In this document: positions 3,302-59,756 of the stretch, piece by piece
How the letters are laid out: each line of letters begins with the position of its first letter
How positions within the stretch are numbered: the first letter of the stretch is position 1
NCBI GenBank assembly: GCA_933228675.1
Contig: OW121743.1
Span: forward strand, 92,877,998 to 92,941,997
Reading direction: 5' to 3'
DNA length: 64,000 nt
Origin: Stomorhina lunata
Lineage: Eukaryota > Arthropoda > Insecta > Diptera > Rhiniidae
The notes under the pieces: generated by a model
The model's database searches: none
Seen by the model: the letters and a program-made list of their open reading frames with translations, nothing else
What the model was told of the DNA's origin: nothing
Translations under genes and position numbers: made by a program

Positions 3302-6300
3302 CGTCTGTCTGTCTGTCTGTTGAAATCAAGTTTCTGAAGCCCCTGGAGGATGGACTTACATAAATTATATATCAGATTTGAGGAAATTCTCCCGCAATGA
3401 ACGCTATTAAATTTCATTAAAATCGGTTTATAAACACCGAAAATATCGAAAAAATACCAAAAATTAGACGAAAATGTTAAAATTTTTGATTGAAACACAT
3501 TTTTAAATAACAAGAGAAAAAAGATACTCCTGATGTACATGTGATAATATGTTATATATCAGATTGTAGGAAATAGTTTCCCAAAGCACTCTGTAAAATT
3601 TTATCAAAATCGGTCCATAAACAACTGAGATATCGCCAAAACACTGAATTTGATGTATCGCAAATTGCCCAAAGTTCGCATTAGAGAATGTTTGTTGAAA
3701 AAATGAAATGCAGAAATAGGAAAAACCATCAGATTTTATGAAATTCCCCCGCCAAGCACGTTATTAAATTTTATCAAAAGCGGTCCATAAACAATTGAGG
3801 TATCGCCATAACACTACATTTGATGTACAGAAAATTGCCCAAAGTACGTGTCTAAGAAATTTTGTTTACATTTCGTAAGTATTGTTTCAGCGATATCTCA
3901 GGTGTTTATTTACCGATTGTGATGAAATTTGACATCGTTCTTTGTGTGAGGATTTTCTAAAATCTATACTTCACAAATCTGATTACGAATACCATTCAAA
4001 TTGTACCGATCAACTCAGAATTGGCAGGAGAATCGATTTCGCGACCTCCGTCCGCCTGTTAGTCTGTCTGTCCATCCGTCTGTTTGTTTGTCCGTCCGTT
4101 CGTCTGTTTTTTTGTCCGTCCGTCTACCTGTCTGTAATTTTTTCTGTTGTAGTCAAGTTTTTGGAGCTCCTGTTTTGTCGATATTTCAGGTGTTTATTTT
4201 GATGAAATTTAATAGCGTCCTTCGCAGGGGATTACCTTAATCCGGATGCATTCGATAATTTGTGGTAGATATAATTTAGCATTTAAGCGATGGTCTTTTG
4301 ATCGACAATGATAAAATTCAGGGTGGGACAATATCCTAAAATTTTGTGTAAAATCCAGGAGCTCCACAAATCTGATTTTAGCAGACAGACACTCTGCATT
4401 AATCTTAATTTTGTGTCTGACTTTTGAACATTATTATATTATTTGAGAATGTTTTATATATCAAATTATAGGTAATCTTCCTAGGAAGTACAAAAATGCA
4501 GCTAAGTACATGATATCCGTTCAAAACCTACATATGTATGTAAGTATCTCCCATATCAACGAAAATTTAAATTTTTTAATTGCAATTGGGAGAAATCCGT
4601 TTACATTTGACAATTGATTCCGTATAACTTCGCCTAAGATAAGATGATGACATTTAGTATAAAGACGTTGTACAATATTGATATTCAGGGCTATACTTAA
4701 ACTTTCTAGAGGGACAACATTTGACAAAAGTATTTCTGATCTCTTGAAATGTTCGATATTAAAAATGGGCGAGCTCTATTCACATTTAGTGAAATCTCCC
4801 ATATAACCCCGACCGGGAATCGATTTAATGCTGATAAATTAAATCACATTAAAATTGCACAAGGAACTAGAGCAAAACTTTCCAAACATCCATCGAACAG
4901 GTCGAAAGAACAATACATCCCAAATATTATTGATGAAGTGTTCATTTTAATTAATTAACTAACTTTAGATTAATAAGTAAATCTATAACTTTTCCGACAA
5001 AGCTGATATCCATCCATTCAAAAGCTATATATTTCACGTATGTATCTAAAACAAAGAGTGTATACCCAATAATTTTAAGGCTTATCATTGTTAAAGCTTT
5101 GACCTAAATCAGTTCAGAGTTTTACATAACTAATCATTAACTTTTAATAGTTGGACAATTCGTATAAATTAAAGTACACAACCCTCACTGGGCACTGTGT
5201 TTTTGGGTTGCATGTCAGAATACTTAAACTTCATCAAATCGATGTGCTATTGCAAATGTAAGGGCATCTACATTTTGAAGCATCTTTTCTGCATGGTTTA
5301 TCTGGTCTATCGAACTTTATTAAATGTTCGTAAAATATGTGTCTATTTTATTTCGAAGCTACTGGCTGACTTAAATATGAATTTTCTACTTGTAGTCTAG
5401 TAATCATTATCTTTCACAAAGGGACCACTTTAGAACCCAAGTGAAGCTTCCCTAGACATTAGCCACCTGCCCAACCTAACCTTTGGGTGCATAACTATTC
5501 TAGATGATGACGCCACCGAAAAGCTTTTCGTTTTCCGACTCTTAATTTTAAAGACTCTTTGCACATAATACTCATAATAACCAAATATTGCTAGGAATTA
5601 CATTAAGTACTTTTGCAACACCATTGGTGAAGGGTATCCAAGATTCGGCAAAGCCGAATATACCACTCTTACTTGTTTTTTTTAATTTCTATCATCATTT
5701 CCTCGACAGCGGCGGCTTAAACTTCGTAACCTATACCTCTGAACCCCGTCTCCTCCTCCCCTACCTCATAAAACGTTTTAGAAAACAAGGCGGTCATATC
5801 TTAAATGAGAAAATTGAAAATATACAAAAATTCATGGAAACTACAAATTACGATGTTATCATCAATTGTACGGGTTTGGGTTCACAGGAATTATTGGGAG
5901 ATGCAAAAATGTATCCAGTACGTGGTCAAGTTTCCCGTGTAAAAGCACCCTGGTTATATTATTGTATGTTGGATGAAAGTGATGTAGGAAACTATGTCAT
6001 ACCCAAGTGAGGAAATACACCGCAATATACAAAATAATAATTAATTAATGAATATTTGAACATTTTTGTCTAGCATGGAATCTGTGGTTCTGGGTGGCAC
6101 TCATCAAGAGAATGATTTCAATACTCAAGTCTGTCCTGTTGATAAAAAATTCATTGTTGATGGTTGTCGTGATTTGGTGCCAGCTTTGCATCAGTCCCAA
6201 CATTTGTTCGATTGGGTGGGTTTGAGGCCAGGCAGAACAACTTTGCGTTTGGAGCAAGAGGATGTCAAAGGTATGTATATTTTATAATATTAAAATATTT

Positions 6301-30489: not shown

Positions 30490-30698
30490 GTCATTAGAAA
30501 AGTTTAAGATAGATTTACTAAGATATCAATATTGACTTAAAAACCAAAAAGAAAATATATCTAGAATCATTATGAAATTTTAAGACAAACGGGCGATGTC
30601 TATCTGTCTGCCTGTTTATCTGTCTGCCTGTTTATCGGTATGTCTGTTTGTCTGTATGTCTGTCTGTTTGTCGATCTGTCTGTCTGTCTGTCTGTCTA

Positions 30699-30785
<87 letters not shown>

Positions 30786-30812
30786 GCCTGTCTGTCTGTC
30801 TGTCTGTCTGCC

Positions 30813-30856
<44 letters not shown>

Positions 30857-37310: not shown

Positions 37311-38229
37311 TTTGCTGAGTTAAGCATTAAATACAAAAACAAGTGTAACAGCAAAAATAATTTTTGGCACAGTGTCTTATGGGAAAGAAAATTTAAATTT
37401 ATTCCGATTAAAGATAATTTAAAACTTTTTTAAAATTTCAAATACCATTAAAATCCTTGATACCGAAAATTTTTCTATATAAATTTGGTGCCGAAAATTT
37501 TTGTATAAAAATTTGATACCGAAAATTTTTCTTTAAAAATTTGATACCGAAAATTTTTATAATAAAAATTTTTCTATACAAATTTGGTACCGACAATTTT
37601 TCTATAAAAAGTAGGTACCACAAATTTTCTATACAAATTTGATACCAAAAATTTGTTTATAAAAATTTTGTGCCGAAATTTTTTCTAAAAAATTTGATAG
37701 CGAAAATTTTTCTATAAAAATTTTATACTATTGAAATTTGATATAAAAATTTTTTACTGAAAATTTTTCTATAAAAATTTGGTACCGAAAATTTTTCTAT
37801 AAAAATGTGGTACCACAAATTTTCTATACAAATTCGATAACAAAAGTTTTTCTATATAAATTTTGTGCCGAAATTTTTTCTAAAAAAATTTGATACTAAA
37901 AATTTTTCTATAAAAATTTGATACCGAAAATTTTTCCATACAATTTTGAAATTGAAAAATTTTTCTATAAAAATTTGATACCAAAAATATTTCTATAAAA
38001 ATTTTTTGCCGAAAATTTTTCTATTAAAGTTTTATACAGAAAATTTTTCTATAGAAATTCTATACCTAAAGTTTTTCGATAAAAACTGTTTCTATACAAA
38101 TTTTATTCTGAAATTTTTTTTTAAAGTTTGATACAGAAAATTTTTCTATAAAAATTTGAAGCCGAAAATTTGTCTTTAAAAATTTGATGCCGAAATTTTT
38201 CTTTAAAAATTTTATACCGAAAAGTTTTC

Positions 38230-38562
38230 AAAAAAAATGTATTTGCATTTGATCCCAAACCTGTTACATTTATTTATTAATGTAACAGATCAATTTATTG
38301 ATAAAAAGCCAAAAAATGTTTGCGGAGAAACCAAATTCCTCGACGCGTTTCGATGGTTGGTTAGGCCATCTCTTCAGGAGGATTATCCCCAATTTAGACA
38401 GATCGAAAACCTCGCATTATTACTAAATTTACAAACATAACTATTAAGAATTATGTTTATAAACCAAAAGTAAAAGCGTAGATTATCGACTGAACAAAAA
38501 CAAACATTTTTCAGTTTTCATCTACCTTCACTTCCCACATTCTTGCTGTAGCCGTCGGCTAC
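38230..38562 (-). mobile_element. 333-bp hammerhead-ribozyme element, copy 1
   Basis: The limits are set by comparison with the empty site at 46981-46990 (GTTTTC|TATAAAAATT). On the plus strand it begins with A8 and TGTATTTGCATTTGATCCCA, has a 10-bp hairpin (38261-38288) and the ribozyme (38337-38382), and ends with the hairpin GTAGCCGTCGGCTAC. No target-site duplication is visible. The ORF 38237-38440 is incidental. Shortened relatives occur at 53848-54020 and 57364-57615. Class inferred: Penelope-like element fragment, or another non-autonomous ribozyme-bearing retroelement. Confidence 0.8.
38337..38382 (-). ncRNA. Hammerhead ribozyme motif (minimal, short stem III), copy 1
   Basis: On the minus strand: stem I 5' TCCTC, core CTGAAGA, stem II GATGG with a 9-nt loop and CCATC, core GAAA, self-complementary stem III ACGCGT, cleavage nucleotide C (at 38342), stem I 3' GAGGA. 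All invariant core positions of the hammerhead (CUGANGA, GAAA, UH before the cut) are present. The predicted cut lies between 38342 and 38341. Very short stem III suggests activity as a dimer, as known for such motifs in Penelope-like elements and some satellites. Activity is not shown. Confidence 0.82.
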
Positions 38563-40629
38563 TATAAAAATTTAATAACGAAAATTTTCTACAAAAATTT
38601 CACACCGAAAGTTATTCAATAAAAAATTGAATTTTCTATAAATTTTAATGCCAAAAATTTTCTATAAAAACTTGATACCGATACTTTTTCAATAAAAATT
38701 TGATTCCGAAAGTTTTTTTATAAAAATTTTATACCAAAAATTTTTCTTTAAAAATTTTTTATCAAAAATGTTTCTATAAACATTTTTTATCGAAAAAGTT
38801 TCTATAAAAATTTTTCTATAAAAATTTGAAACCAAAAATTTTTCTATAAAAATTTGATACCGACAATTTAACGCAGACAATTTTTCTATTAAAACTTAAT
38901 ACCGAAAAATTTTGTATAAAAATTTTATACCGAAAAATTTTCTATAAAAATTTTATACCGAAAATTTTTCTATAAAAATTTGATACTTAAAACTTTTCTA
39001 TACAAATTTGATACCAAAAACTTTTCTCTAAAAATTTGATATAGAAAATTTTCTATAAAAATTATATACCGAAAATTTTTCTTTAAAAATTTAATACCGA
39101 ATATCTATAAAAATCTGTTACCTAAAGTCTTCTATAAAAATTTAACATCAAAAATTTCTATAAAAATTTGATATCGAAAAATTTTTTTTTAAAAATTTGA
39201 TACCGATATTTTTCTATAAAAATTTGATACCGAAAATTTTTCTATAACAATTTTATACCGAAAATTTTTCTTTAAAAATTTGATACCGAAAATTTTTCTT
39301 TAAAGATTTGATACCAAAAATTTTTCTATAAAAATTTTGATACGGAAAATTTTTGCTAAAAAATTTGATACCAAAAATTTTTCCTAAAAAATTTGATACC
39401 GAAAAATTTTCTATAAAAAATTGACACCGAAAGTTTTTTTAACAAAAATTTAAATTTTCTATTAAACTTAATGCCGACAATTTTTCTATTAAAACTTGAT
39501 ACCGAAAACTTTCCTATAAAAGTTTGATACTGAAAATGTTTCTATAAAAATTTGATACCGAAAAAATTTCTATAAAAATTTGATATCGAAAATTTTTCTA
39601 TAAAAATTTGTCATTAAAAATTTTTCGATAAAACTTTGACACCGAAAGTTTTTCAATAAAAATTTAAATTTTCTATTAAATTTAATGCCGACAATTTTTC
39701 TATTAAAACTTGATACCGAAAACTTTCCTATAAAAATTTGATACCGAAAATGTTTCTATAAAAATTTGATACCGAAAAATTTTCTATAAAAATTTGATAT
39801 CGAAAATTTTTCTATAAAAATTTGATATTGAAAATTTTTCTAAAAAAATTGGACACCGAAAATTTTTTTATAAAAATTTGATACTGAAAATTTTTCCTTA
39901 AAAATTTGATTCCTAAAATTTTTCTTTAAAAATTTGATACCGAAAATTTTTCTTTAAAAATTTGATACCGAAACCTTTTCTCTAAAAATGTGATACCAAA
40001 ATTTTATCTATATAAATTTGATTATAAAAATTTTTTTATAAAAATTTAACATCGAAAATTTTTCTATTAAAATTTGATACCGAAAATTTTTCCACAAAAA
40101 TTTTACGCCGAAAATTTTTCTGTTAAAATTTCATACCAAAAATTTTTCAATAAAAATATGTTATCAAAAATTTTTCCTCAAAAATTTTCTATAAAAATTT
40201 GATACCGAAAATTTTTTTACAAAAATTTGATACTGAAAATTTTTCCTTAAAAATTTGATACTGAAAATTTTTCCTTAAAAATTTGATACCGAAAATTTTT
40301 CTTTAAAAATTTGATACCGAAAATTCTTCTTTAAAAATTTGATACCGAAAACTTTTCTTTAAAAATGTGATACCGAAATTTAATCTATAAAAATTTGATA
40401 CTAAAGAATTTTCTTTAAAATTTGATACCGAAAATTTTTTTATAAAAATTTGAGACCGAACATTTTTTTATAAAAATTTGATACCGAAAATTTTTCTATA
40501 AAAATTTGATAGCGAAAATTTTTCTTTAAAAATTTAATACCAAAAATTTTTCGATAAAAATTTTATGCTGAAAATTTTTCTTTAGAAATTTTATACCGAA
40601 AATTTTTCTGCGAAAATTTTATGCTCCAC

Positions 40630-46043: not shown

Positions 46044-47318
46044 GCTGAGTTAAGCATTAAATACAAAAACAAGTGTAACAGCAAAAATAATTTTTGGCAC
46101 AGTGTCTTATGGGAAAGAAAATTTAAATTTATTCCGATTAAAGATAATTTAAAACTTTTTTAAAATTTCAAATAACATTAAAATCCTTGATACCGAAAAT
46201 TTTTCTATATAAATTTGGTGCCGAAAATTTTTGTATAAAAATTTGATACCGAAAATTTTTCATTAAAAATTTGATACCGAAAATTTTTATAATAAAAATT
46301 TTTCTATACAAATTTGGTACCGACAATTTGTCTATAAAAAGTTGGTACCACAAATTTTCTATACAAATTTGATACCAATAATTTGTTTATAAAAATTTTG
46401 TGGCGAAATTTTTTCTAAAAAATTTGATAGCGAAAAATGTTCTTTAAAAATTTGTTGTCGAAAATTTTTCTATAAAAGTTTGATACTATTAAAATTTTAT
46501 ATAAAAATTTTTTACTGAAAATTTTTCTATAAAAATTTGGTACCGAAAATTTTTCTATAAAAATGTGGTACCACAAATTTTCTACACAAATTCGATAACA
46601 AAAGTTTTTCTATATAAATTTTGTGCCGAAATTTTTTCTAAAAAAATTTGATACTGAAAATTTTTCTATAAAAATTTGATACCGAAAATTTTTCCATACA
46701 AATTTGAAACTGAAAAATTTTTCTATAAAAATTTGATACCAAAAATATTTCTATAAAAATTTTTTGCCGGAAATTTTTCTATAAAAGTTTTTTACAGAAA
46801 ATTTTACTATAAAAATTCTATACCTAAAGTTTTTCGATAAAAACTGTTTCTATACAAATTTTATTCTGAAATTTTTTTTTAAGTTTGATACAGATAATTT
46901 TTCTATAAAAATTTGAAGCCGAAAATTTGTCTTTAAAAATTTGATACCGAAATTTTTCTTTAAAAATTTTATACCGAAAAGTTTTCTATAAAAATTTAAT
47001 AACGAAAATTTTCTACAAAAATTTCACACCGAAAGTTTTTCAATAAAAAATTGAATTTTCTATAAATTTTAATGCCAAAAATTTTCTATTAAAACTTGAT
47101 ACCGATACTTTTTCAATAAAAATTTGATTCCGAAAGTTTTTCTATAAAAATTTTATACCAAAAATTTTTCTTTAAAAATTTTTTATCAAAAATGTTTCTA
47201 TAAACATTTTTTTATCAAAAATGTTTCTATACAAATTTTTTATCAACAATTTTTCTATAAAAACATTTTATCAAAAATTTTTCTATAAAAATTTGAAACC
47301 AAAAATTTTTCTAGAACA
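46044..47318. repeat. Duplicated segment, copy 2 (array A7', no ribozyme element)
   Basis: Near-identical to 37311-38846 without the 333-bp insertion. It begins with the same ~125-bp non-satellite leader, then ~28-bp GATACCGAAAATTTTTCTAT units from about 46186, ending TTTTTCTAGAA at the right direct repeat. It carries one extra unit near 46435 and one near 47210 relative to copy 1. Confidence 0.93.
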
Positions 47319-52695: not shown

Positions 52696-53847
52696 AGTAT
52701 AACAAATTTTATTTGGATTTTTCTATAGAAATTTTTTTATTCAAAATTTTTCTATAGATAATTTTTTTATGAAAAATTTTCTTATAAAAATTTTTCTATA
52801 GAAAATTTTTTTATCAGAAATTTTTCTGTAAAAAAATTGTTTATCAAAATTTTTCTATAGAAAATTTTTTTATCAAAAATTTTTCTATGAAAAATTTTTT
52901 ATCAAAAATTTTTCTACGAAAATTTTTTATGAATTTTTTTTTCAAAAATTTTATTAAAATTTTTCTATAGAAAATTTTTTATCAAACATTTTTTTATAGA
53001 TAATTTTTATATTAAATATTTTCTTACAAAAATTTTTTTATCAAAAATTTTCTTACAAACATTTTTTACTTAGAAAATTTTTCTATAGAACATTTTTTGA
53101 ACAAAATTTTTCTGCAGAAAATTTTTTTATCAAAAAATTTTTTACGAAATTTTTTTTTTTCAATAATTTTTCTGTAGAAAATTTAATTGGCATTTTTTTA
53201 TTATAGATAATTTTTTTATCAACAATTTTCTTACAAAATTTTTCTTTAGACAACTTTTTTACCAAAAACTTTTCTTTAGAAAATTTTTTTATCAAAATTT
53301 TTCATCAAAATTTTTCTATAAAAAAATTTTTTATGAAAAATTTTTATATAAAAAGTTTTTTTATCAAAAATTTTTCTATAGAAAATTTTTTTATCAAAAT
53401 TTTTCTATAGAAAATTTTTTTTTCAAAAATTTTTCTATAGAAAATTTTGTTATCAAAAATTTTTCCATAGAAAATTTTTTTATCAAAAATTTTTCTATAG
53501 AAAATTTTTTTATCAAAAATTTTTCTATAGAAAATATTTTTATCAAAAATTTTTCTACGAAAATTTTATTATGAAATTTTTTTTCAAAAATTTTATTAAA
53601 ATTTTTCTATAGAAAATTTTTTATATATAATTTTTTTATTAAAAATTTTCTTACAAAAATTTTTTTATCAAAAATTTTCTTACAAACATTTTTTACTTAG
53701 AAAATTTTTCTATAGAAAATTTTTTGATCAAAAATTGTTTTATGAAATTTTTTTATCAAAAAATTTTTTACGAAAACTTTTTTTCAAAAATTTTTCTATA
53801 GGAAATTTTATTGGCATTTTTTATAGGTAATTTTTTTTCAAAAAGAA

Positions 53848-54020
53848 GTGTATTTGCATTTGATCCCAAATCTGTTACATTTATTTTTTAATGTAACAGA
53901 CCAATTTATTAATAAAAAGCCAAAAAATGTTTGCGGAGAAACCAAAGTCCTCGATGCGTTTCGATGGTTGGTTAAGCCATCTCTTCAGGAGGATTATCCC
54001 CAATTTAGACAGATCGAAAA
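53848..54020 (-). mobile_element. Hammerhead-ribozyme element, copy 2 (shortened)
   Basis: TGTATTTGCATTTGATCCCA through CAATTTAGACAGATCGAAAA, ~90% like the first ~170 bp of copy 1, then directly back into satellite. Array repeats flanking it match the ribozyme-free stretch at 53170-53225 (GGCATTTTTTATTATAGATAATTTTTT...), marking an approximate empty site. Overlapping ORFs are incidental. Confidence 0.8.
53948..53993 (-). ncRNA. Hammerhead ribozyme motif, copy 2
   Basis: Same 46-nt layout as copy 1: TCCTC / CTGAAGA / GATGG-loop-CCATC / GAAA / stem III / C / GAGGA. One change, ACGCAT instead of ACGCGT, weakens the self-complementary stem III. Core positions are intact and the cut-site triplet is ATC, still of the allowed NUH form. 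Confidence 0.75.
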
Positions 54021-57055: not shown

Positions 57056-57363
57056 AAGCAAATTTTCTATTTTTTATTAGACATTTTTCTATCAAAAATT
57101 TTTGGATAGAACATTTTTCTTTAGAAAAATGTTTTTACCTAGAAGTTTTCTATATAAAAGTATTTTTATCGAGAATTTTTCTATCATTTGTTATAAAAAA
57201 TTTTTTTATAGAAAAATATTTTTTAAAAAGGTTTAACAAAAATTTTTTTTCCAAAATTTTGCAATAGAAAATTAGTTTTATCGAAAATTTTTCTATAGAA
57301 AAATATTTTAGTCAAAAATTTTTATATATAGAAATATTTTTTTAAAAAGTTTTGCTACAGTGT

Positions 57364-57615
57364 ATTGAACTAAGATCCCAATTTATTACAATTATTTATT
57401 ATTGTAAATAATAAATAGTTTTTTGATAAAACCAAAAAATGTTGGTGGGGAAGCCATCCTCGACGCCTTTCGATGGTTGGTTAGGTCATCTCTTCAGGAG
57501 GATAATCCCTAATAATAGACAAAGCGAAAACCACACATTAATTTTTATTTGAGGGACAGAACAAATACGAATTCTTGTTTCCAACGTATGTCAACATAAA
57601 GTGAAGAAAAACCCT
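57364..57615 (-). mobile_element. Hammerhead-ribozyme element, copy 3 (diverged)
   Basis: TTGAACTAAGATCCCAATTT through GACAGAACAAATACGAATTC to about CATAAAGTGAAG. More diverged than copies 1 and 2 but alignable across the hairpin (57386-57407) and ribozyme. It extends ~110 bp past the ribozyme with a sequence unlike copy 1. Satellite flanks both sides. Confidence 0.75.
57457..57502 (-). ncRNA. Hammerhead ribozyme motif, copy 3
   Basis: Same 46-nt length with intact CTGAAGA, GAAA, GTC cut-site and stem I (TCCTC/GAGGA, extended by one more A-T pair). Stem II is GATGA/CCATC, so one closing pair is lost. Stem III reads AGGCGT. The core is conserved although the surrounding element is strongly diverged. 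Confidence 0.75.
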
Positions 57616-59310
57616 TTTGAAAAATATTTTCATCGAAAATTTTTCAATAGAAAAGTAGTTTAATTGAAAATGTTTCTATAGCAAAACATTTTCATCGAAA
57701 ATTTTTCAATAGAAAAGTATTTTTATTGAAAATTTTTCTATAGAAAAATATTTTTGTCGAAATTATTTTATAGAAAAATATTTATATCGAAAATTTTTCT
57801 ATAGAAAAAAACTTTTATCGAAAATGTTTCTATAAAAAATAATTTTATCAAAAATTCTTCTATAGAAAAATATTGTTATCGACAATTTTTCTATAGAAAA
57901 ATATTTTTGTCGAAAATTTTTGTATAGAAAAATACTTATGACGAAAATTTTTCTATAGGAAAATATTTTTATCGCAATTTTTTTTATCGAAAAATATTGT
58001 AATCGAAATATTTTTCTATAGAAAAATATTTTTATCGAAAATTTTTCTATAGAAAAATATTTTTATCGAAAATTTTTCTATAGAAAAATATTTTTATAGA
58101 AAATTTTTCTATAGAAAAATATTTTTATCGAAAATTTTTCTATAGAAAAATATTTTTATCAAAAATTTTTCTATAGCAAAATATTTTTGTCGAAAATTTT
58201 TCTATAGAAAAATATTTTTATGGAAAATTTTTCTATAGAAAAATATTTTTATGGAAAATTTTTCTATAGAAAAATATGTTAATCGAAATATTTTATTAGG
58301 AAAATATTTTTATCGATAATTTTTCTATAGCAAAATATTTTTATCCAAAATTTTTCTATAGCAAAATATTTTTGTCGAAAATTTTTCTATAGAAAAAAAC
58401 TTTTATCGAAAATGTTTCTATAAAAAATAATTTTATCAAAAATTCTTCTATAGAAAAATATTGTTATCGACAATTTTTCTATAGAAAAATATTTTTGTCG
58501 AAAATTTTTGTATAGAAAAATACTTATGACGAAAATTTTTCTATAGGAAAATATTTTTATCGCAATTTTTTTTATCGAAAAATGTTGTAATCGAAATATT
58601 TTTCTATAGAAAAATATTTTTATCGAAAATTTTTCTATAAAAAATATTTTTATCGAAAATTTTTCTATAGAAAAATATTTTTATAGAAAATTTTTCTATA
58701 GAAAAATATTTTTATCGAAAATTTTTCTATAGAAAAATATTTTTATCAAAAATTTTTCTATAGAAAAATATTTTTATGGAAAATTTTTCTATAGAAAAAT
58801 ATTTTTATGGAAAATTTTTCTATAGAAAAATATGTTAATCGAAATATTTTATTAGGAAAATATTTTTATCGACAATTTTTCTATAGCAAAATATTTTTAT
58901 CCAAAATTTTTCTATAGGAAAATATTTTTGTCGAAAATTTTTCTATAGAAAAATACTTTTATGGAAAATTTTTCTATAGAAAAATATGTTTATCGAAAAT
59001 TTTTCTATAGAAAAATATTTGTATCGAAAATTTTTCTATAGAAAATATTTATACAAAAAATTTTTCTTTAGAAAAATATTTTTTTTAGAAAATATTTTTT
59101 ATCGAAAATTTTTCTATAGAGAAATATTTTTATCGAAAATTTTTCTTTAGAAAAATATTTTTATCGAAAATTCTTCTATGGAAAAATATTTTTTTCAATA
59201 ATTTTTCTATAGAAAAATATTTTGTTTCGAAAATTTTTCTATAGAGAATTATTTTTACGAAATTTTTTTTATATAAAGAAATATTTTAATCGAAAAATTT
59301 TCTATAGAGA

Positions 59311-59593
59311 TGAGGTTATACGGGAGTTATGGTCAAATATGAACCGATTTTGACCAATTTCAACACCAATTTTTTTTCCAGAAATGAAAAGTTTCTCTGC
59401 CAAGTTTCAGTGACCTAGCTTCTTTCGTTTAGGAGTTATCAAGAGAAAGACGGACAGAGACGAAAAGACAGACGGAAAGAAAGAAAGACAGACAGATGGA
59501 CAGACAGACAGACCGAAAGAAAGAACGAATGAAAGAATGACAGACAGACAGACAGACAAACAGACATATAGACAGACAGACAGACAGACAGAA

Positions 59594-59688
<95 letters not shown>

Positions 59689-59689
59689 A

Positions 59690-59756
<67 letters not shown>

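Follow-up and report, generated by a model that had tools for sequence, protein, structure and literature searches.

The hammerhead motif on the minus strand of the analyzed stretch of the Stomorhina lunata genome (64,000 nucleotides of contig OW121743.1, hereafter the window) is best explained, with a probability of about four in five, by a retrozyme-like mobile element of 464 bp that has no coding sequence: the motif would be its minimal type I hammerhead ribozyme, and its copying would depend on enzymes from Penelope-like elements (PLEs) of the same genome.

Hammerhead motifs and element copies in the window

Direct reading of the minus strand gave TCCTC (38382-38378), CTGAAGA, the stem II halves GATGG...CCATC, GAAA, ACGCGT, C at 38342 and GAGGA (38341-38337), with the letters, order and coordinates of the original prediction, and cleavage is predicted between 38342 and 38341. 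The CUGANGA...GAAA core, stems I and II, A15.1/U16.1, H17 and an open stem I were all present. A strict descriptor (core, at least 4 bp in each of stems I and II, A15.1/U16.1 and H17) found three matches in the window, all on the minus strand and with their first core base at 38377, 53988 and 57497, two of which had not been noticed before (Table 1). Across 300 dinucleotide shuffles of the window the same descriptor gave a mean of 0.01 matches (maximum 1), in agreement with the earlier opinion that a chance origin was unlikely, and a 21-nt pattern (stem II with its loop, up to 3 mismatches) was matched three times in the window vs. none in 100 shuffles. The third hammerhead is perhaps weakened by its A-C pair in stem II and its AGGCGT stem III.

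Table 1. Features of the element copies and of the empty array in the window.
Feature	Position	Strand	Basis or remark
Copy 1, 5'-truncated single-armed insertion, subfamily A, SHORT 3' end	38229..38561	-	AT-rich 28-bp array
Proposed RT-start module of copy 1, first part (GGGAT arm, AC-rich stretch, SHORT end after T run)	38229..38256	-	3'-end mapping, PLE geometry
Hairpin between ribozyme and 3' end, copy 1	38259..38290	-	three pairs changed on both sides, subfamilies A vs. B
Minimal type I hammerhead, copy 1	38337..38382	-	direct reading, descriptor vs. shuffles, genomic matches
Array duplicate without element (empty site)	46187..47294		93.9% and 90.7% identity to copy 1 flanks
Copy 2, 182-bp truncated single-armed insertion, subfamily A, SHORT end	53839..54020	-	AT-rich array
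Hammerhead, copy 2	53948..53993	-	stem III ACGCAT; strict descriptor; top-ranked by PLE-derived model R2
Copy 3, subfamily B	57342..57618	-	AT-rich array; boundaries approximate, by eye
Hammerhead, copy 3	57457..57502	-	last stem II pair A-C, stem III AGGCGT; strict descriptor

A covariance-model search had been proposed as a check on the motif, to be refuted by the lack of a significant score, and with the Rfam models the outcome was negative: no family reached its gathering score in the whole window, and hammerhead families were absent from the matches to 38200-38600 at E up to 10. Since Rfam at E up to 1 also failed to list hammerheads in four PLE pseudo-LTR pieces, this result says little about minimal motifs. 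In the window, a model built solely from the PLE hammerheads of the same genome (R2) gave its best score to copy 2 (21.3 bits) and the next best to copy 1 (21.1 bits), both at E about 0.003. An AT-rich, chance-looking site scored almost as high (20.0 bits, E 0.0064), and copy 3 was absent from the matches at E up to 10. Support for the motif is therefore mainly comparative. Among 10 aligned copies from two subfamilies the hammerhead core was largely kept, and no compensatory changes were seen in stems I and II, which show little variation within the 464-bp family.

The minimum free energy (MFE) fold of 58 nt around the copy 1 motif was no better than that of shuffles (z -0.10), and helix III of this copy consists of just A-U around CGCG. 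Cofolding of two motifs gave a double hammerhead at -27.3 kcal/mol vs. -9.8 kcal/mol for one motif; the two are linked by the palindromic ACGCGU and by an exchange of stems I, and by this prediction the ribozyme may work as a dimer. The proposed reading, a minimal type I hammerhead whose stem III is palindromic and which is of a sort tied to Penelope-like elements and retrozymes, is supported.

The proposed 333-bp length proved correct: comparison with an empty duplicate of the array gave a net insertion of 333 bp. The arrays at 37457-38800 and 46187-47294 are mutual duplicates of a 28-bp AT-rich repeat, 91-94% identical to each other, and because the latter lacks the insertion, copy 1 is probably younger than the array duplication. 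Copy 1 was 98.8% identical to the 464-bp unit over 341 nt; its 5' junction showed a 5-bp TATAG microhomology with the target, and no target-site duplication was found when judged against the empty duplicate. Copy 2 was 95.4% identical to the unit over 194 nt, with both flanks within arrays, and copy 3 had about 77% identity to the subfamily A unit.

AT-rich arrays cover 30.6% of the window (a filter-based value) and contain all three copies, as would be expected if the hammerhead were part of a satellite array and processed the array's transcripts, which had been suggested at the outset. That the element lies inside an array was confirmed, but it is an insertion there and not a component of the satellite, as the empty duplicate demonstrates; the role in processing satellite transcripts is unsupported for a dispersed mobile element absent from the near-identical array at 46-47 kb. 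A satellite-borne ribozyme is contradicted also by the fixed 3' ends, variable 5' ends and target-site duplications of the element in the genome, and by the searched satellite motif being present in the 3' flank of just 17 of 30 loci chosen by similarity (L012 and L024-L027 being uninformative, as their 3' flank is another unit), so that we consider this explanation highly improbable.

The window also holds long tetranucleotide arrays, (TGTC)n at 30597-30856 and (AGAC)n at 59466-59756, and an open frame at 5552-6010 which we take to resemble a D-amino-acid / D-aspartate oxidase exon. The palindrome TAGCCGACGGCTA occurs on the minus strand at 38549-38561, close to the 5' end of copy 1. Palindromes have been reported at rotifer inverted PLE junctions (PMC3846280).

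The 464-bp element in the genome

Searching the 728-Mb genome with a 41-nt hammerhead pattern (up to 3 mismatches) returned 4907 matches, and the reversed-pattern control none; a 32-nt pattern had 0 matches in viral contigs. The unit of the element's tandem arrays was 464 bp, and in the sample from C1 eight of nine tandem neighbour pairs were spaced by 464-465 bp. Three joined units contained no ATG frame longer than 29 aa on the element strand; lacking reverse transcriptase (RT) and GIY-YIG coding, the element is therefore non-autonomous at most. Folded as a circle, the unit reached an MFE of -122 vs. -84.6 for 200 shuffles (z -6.4), none of which was equally stable. Pairing in the hairpin between ribozyme and 3' end was kept through three two-sided changes, each present in four of ten sequences, which may represent one single divergence. 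At G000:C1:31492806-31496151, eight hammerhead units of the element, four on each strand, form a symmetrical array.

The 3' ends of the element were mainly two, 38 bp apart: a SHORT end at unit position 114 (...CACTTCTTTTTG) and a LONG end at 152 (...GTTATTTTTTGA). This spacing falls within the 30-40 bp that separate the two alternative 3' ends of PLEs, and the inverted and tandem arrangement and the AT-rich target of PLEs were likewise found for the element. A proposed RT-start module has paired arms GGGAT...ATCCC in subfamily A and TTGGGA...TCCCAA in subfamily B, with the geometry seen in PLEs; the stem was chosen post hoc, and one appeared in 21 of 3000 shuffles for A and 37 of 3000 for B. 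Copy 1 ends before the second module arm and the LONG site. Being short, non-coding, high in copy number and 5'-truncated, the element could be taken for a SINE-like element moved by a LINE, yet no poly(A) or microsatellite tail was seen at the listed 3' ends, and the two 3' ends and the head-to-head rule described below are shared with PLEs, which leaves a LINE-driven origin with very little probability.

The 5' ends of 93 arms were spread along the unit, and just one lay within 5 nt of the predicted ribozyme cut; linear self-cleaved RNA is therefore not the usual template, and cleaved linear monomers were rejected in that role. The scattered ends fit circular or uncut RNA, and a process that may or may not need cleavage. 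Successive passes round the unit inside one arm differed at 8 positions in 3542 nt over 18 arms (0.23 per 100 nt), after three of 21 arms (L012, L029 and L066) had been dropped as misaligned; with these included, the within-arm value was 4.49 per 100 nt vs. 1.35 between arms. Near-identical passes would be expected from a shared or circular template, and homogeneous linear multimers would fit too.

Among the first 100 places on C1 with an exact hammerhead, neighbouring copies no more than 1.5 kb apart were arranged head-to-head in 13 cases, tail-to-tail in 2 and in tandem in 9. Ten loci with just one exact hammerhead (L067-L076) comprised six that also contained a head-to-head partner arm and four with a single arm. 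End classes were compared at loci picked by similarity (L002-L030) and at loci picked, regardless of end class, by map position and orientation among the 100 listed C1 places (L052-L077). L023, L024, L025 and L027, from the same region as L026, were left out of the end-class, 5'-end and two-pass comparisons, as were L062 and L063, the ends of one 8-unit array (SHORT and LONG). Both ends could be called in 33 of 39 head-to-head insertions, the other six having an uncallable end. LONG was combined with SHORT in 31 of these 33, SHORT with SHORT in two (L007 and L016) and LONG with LONG in none, vs. 16.4 mixed insertions expected if the ends were independent (binomial p 6e-8). All 17 head-to-head insertions with called ends at loci chosen by map position were LONG+SHORT, and fifteen single-armed copies comprised 8 SHORT and 7 LONG ends. 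Target-site duplications of at least 9 bp (median 12) flanked 22 of 28 head-to-head insertions, 11 further ones having been skipped, vs. 124 of 756 mismatched pairings.

The duplicated target, the outward 3' ends and the different start site on each side point to two-sided priming at one staggered break. An alternative route to head-to-head copies, put forward for rotifer PLEs (PMC3846280), is self-priming of one cDNA or the use of an antisense template; few-base overlaps at some junctions as well as the likeness between the arms of one insertion (1.87 differences vs. 3.47 between arms of different insertions; permutation p 5e-5, 23 insertions) would agree with it. Self-priming should not yield one LONG and one SHORT end, because one arm would be copied from the other, and the end classes together with the duplicated target make it unlikely. 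In 12 of the 23 insertions the arms were non-identical, and a single template molecule for both is therefore unproven. The accessible text of PMC3846280 describes the tail as optional on one inverted pseudo-LTR and states that the head-to-head order was seen most often, which partly foreshadows the LONG+SHORT rule; no statement of it as a rule was found in the literature searched, which mostly did not extend to subscription papers.

Penelope-like elements of the same genome and proposed integration

A GIY-YIG profile search of the genome gave 7 matches, one of them weak (26.3 bits, E 0.005, over the cut-off) and located in an 832-aa stop-free frame that carries RVT_1. A Pfam scan of this protein at E up to 0.01 listed RVT_1 alone, without GIY-YIG, which was not among the precomputed domains of its listed homologues either. 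The named ones among 120 listed homologues were from Musca, Lucilia, Haematobia, Eurosta and Drosophila, and the protein had 55 matches in the genome (39-100% identity), several of them stop-free at nearly full length.

The pseudo-LTRs of four PLE groups, defined by identity, contained hammerheads or hammerhead-like motifs. Among 12 distinct motifs, 9 pairs showed two-sided changes, a number equaled by 13 of 500 shuffles, none of which equaled the covariation score. The core pair C3-G8 was C-G in 7 motifs and U-A in 5, a compensatory change; L046, L051, L080 and L084 (groups 2 and 3) have the core TTGAAAA in place of CTGANGA, that is, U3-A8 for C3-G8. An additional nucleotide separates A9 from stem II in all 12 aligned motifs, forming an ATG in groups 1-3. 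Downstream of the ribozyme, PLEs carry GACCT...AGGTC, with the SHORT end between the arms and the LONG end 19-25 nt past the second arm. The 3' flanks of groups 1-3, inspected by eye, were the same kind of satellite in 17 of 22 cases, the exceptions being both flanks of L041 and the flanks of L043, L082 and L083. All eight recognised head-to-head PLE pairs were LONG+SHORT (by eye).

This common layout of ribozyme and two ends, together with the frequent 5' truncation of element arms, would also suit copies that are solo pseudo-LTR debris, left by deleted or 5'-truncated full-length PLEs, rather than a family moving as its own RNA. Debris does not readily account for tandem 464-bp units without coding sequence, nor for 4907 hammerheads (up to 3 mismatches) vs. 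at least 355 first-look PLE protein candidates. No pseudo-LTR closely similar to the unit was found in the seven PLE pieces tested (best match 14 nt, E 0.05), and the module is built from other arms in the element (GGGAT/ATCCC) than in PLEs (GACCT/AGGTC). A search for PLE coding sequence in the window and at L001-L030, flanks of about 1.5 kb included, gave matches at L013 and L030 only, some hundred bases from the element. One PLE locus (L038, 4912-5010) contained a 99-nt match to the unit, taken as a separate insertion in satellite because the other PLE pieces lack it. We regard an origin as debris as improbable, though less so than the other alternatives.

Under the reading as a mobile element copied by PLE enzymes, the ribozyme would cut multimeric or read-through transcripts, probably in a dimeric form that relies on the palindromic stem III, and the monomers may be ligated into circles. 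The PLE protein would make a staggered break with 3' overhangs of roughly 12 nt at a satellite site of the A5-T5 type. Element RNA would then be reverse transcribed from both 3' ends, with the upstream start site used on one side (SHORT) and the downstream one on the other (LONG). Each cDNA would extend a variable distance, sometimes more than one turn round the unit, before end joining; extension on one side alone would leave a single-armed copy, like copies 1 and 2 of the window. A purified PLE protein is reported to cut and extend both strands in vitro, to use two internal start sites and to prefer AT-rich DNA (PMC11167929). In the same work ribozyme mutants still inserted in vitro, cleavage being dispensable there, and one PLE hammerhead is reported to have cleaved solely in the presence of protein; we infer that the ribozyme serves to make monomers for circularisation.

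A more general proposal, on which belief and doubt weigh about equally with us, is that PLE-type integration is two-ended: one complex would reverse transcribe element RNA, perhaps one circle, from both ends of the break, the two RT-start sites (the optional tail) would exist since each side uses another, and the 464-bp element would be a ribozyme-bearing passenger keeping only what the machine needs. The rule of one long and one short end (31 of 33 called insertions of the element, 8 of 8 PLE pairs) might explain why PLEs have a tail and why their copies occur head-to-head. According to a 2020 review (PMC7761336), animal retrozyme repeats lack a motif that reveals the mobilising retrotransposon, PLEs being likely candidates. 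The PLE end signatures in the examined copies and the hammerhead-bearing PLEs of the same genome make this link testable, and two-ended integration, if true, would tie animal retrozyme-like elements to PLEs.

Comparison with known systems

The element resembles the metazoan non-LTR retrozymes as described in the available text of Cervera and de la Pena (2020, PMC7229834) in its short non-coding tandem units, from monomers to multimers, its type I hammerheads, low G+C content, strong predicted self-pairing of its RNA and co-occurrence with PLEs. Its 464-bp unit is slightly over the published 150-450 bp, and its hammerhead is minimal with a palindromic stem III, whereas those of retrozymes are mostly canonical with loop-loop contacts (PMC7229834); a weak helix III has also been reported for amphibian retrozymes (PMC7761336). 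Unlike retrozymes, it carries PLE-like tail ends, head-to-head structure and target-site duplications.

With the PLEs that bear hammerheads in their pseudo-LTRs (PMC11167929, PMC3846280) the element shares a minimal hammerhead, two RT-start sites (the optional 30-40 bp tail), AT-rich targets and units in tandem and inverted order. In contrast to PLEs, it contains no frame for RT / GIY-YIG, its start module pairs through arms of a different sequence, and the additional nucleotide that precedes stem II in all 12 aligned PLE motifs is absent from its hammerhead. The accessible part of a paper on Drosophila virilis elements (PMC12910113) makes no mention of hammerheads. PLE-type hammerheads are a feature in common with Terminons (PMC7229834, PMC7761336). 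In the hammerhead satellites of newts, schistosomes and cave crickets (PMC7229834) the ribozymes likewise reside in repeated DNA, and those of amphibian satellites need dimers (PMC7229834); here, unlike in these satellites, the host array is unrelated to the element, which is an insertion in it. The element was filed as a non-autonomous, PLE-type and retrozyme-like element. It behaves as a passenger of PLEs would and is similar to the non-LTR retrozymes of animals, but its minimal hammerhead and PLE-like ends set it apart from these, as a PLE-type retrozyme-like variant.
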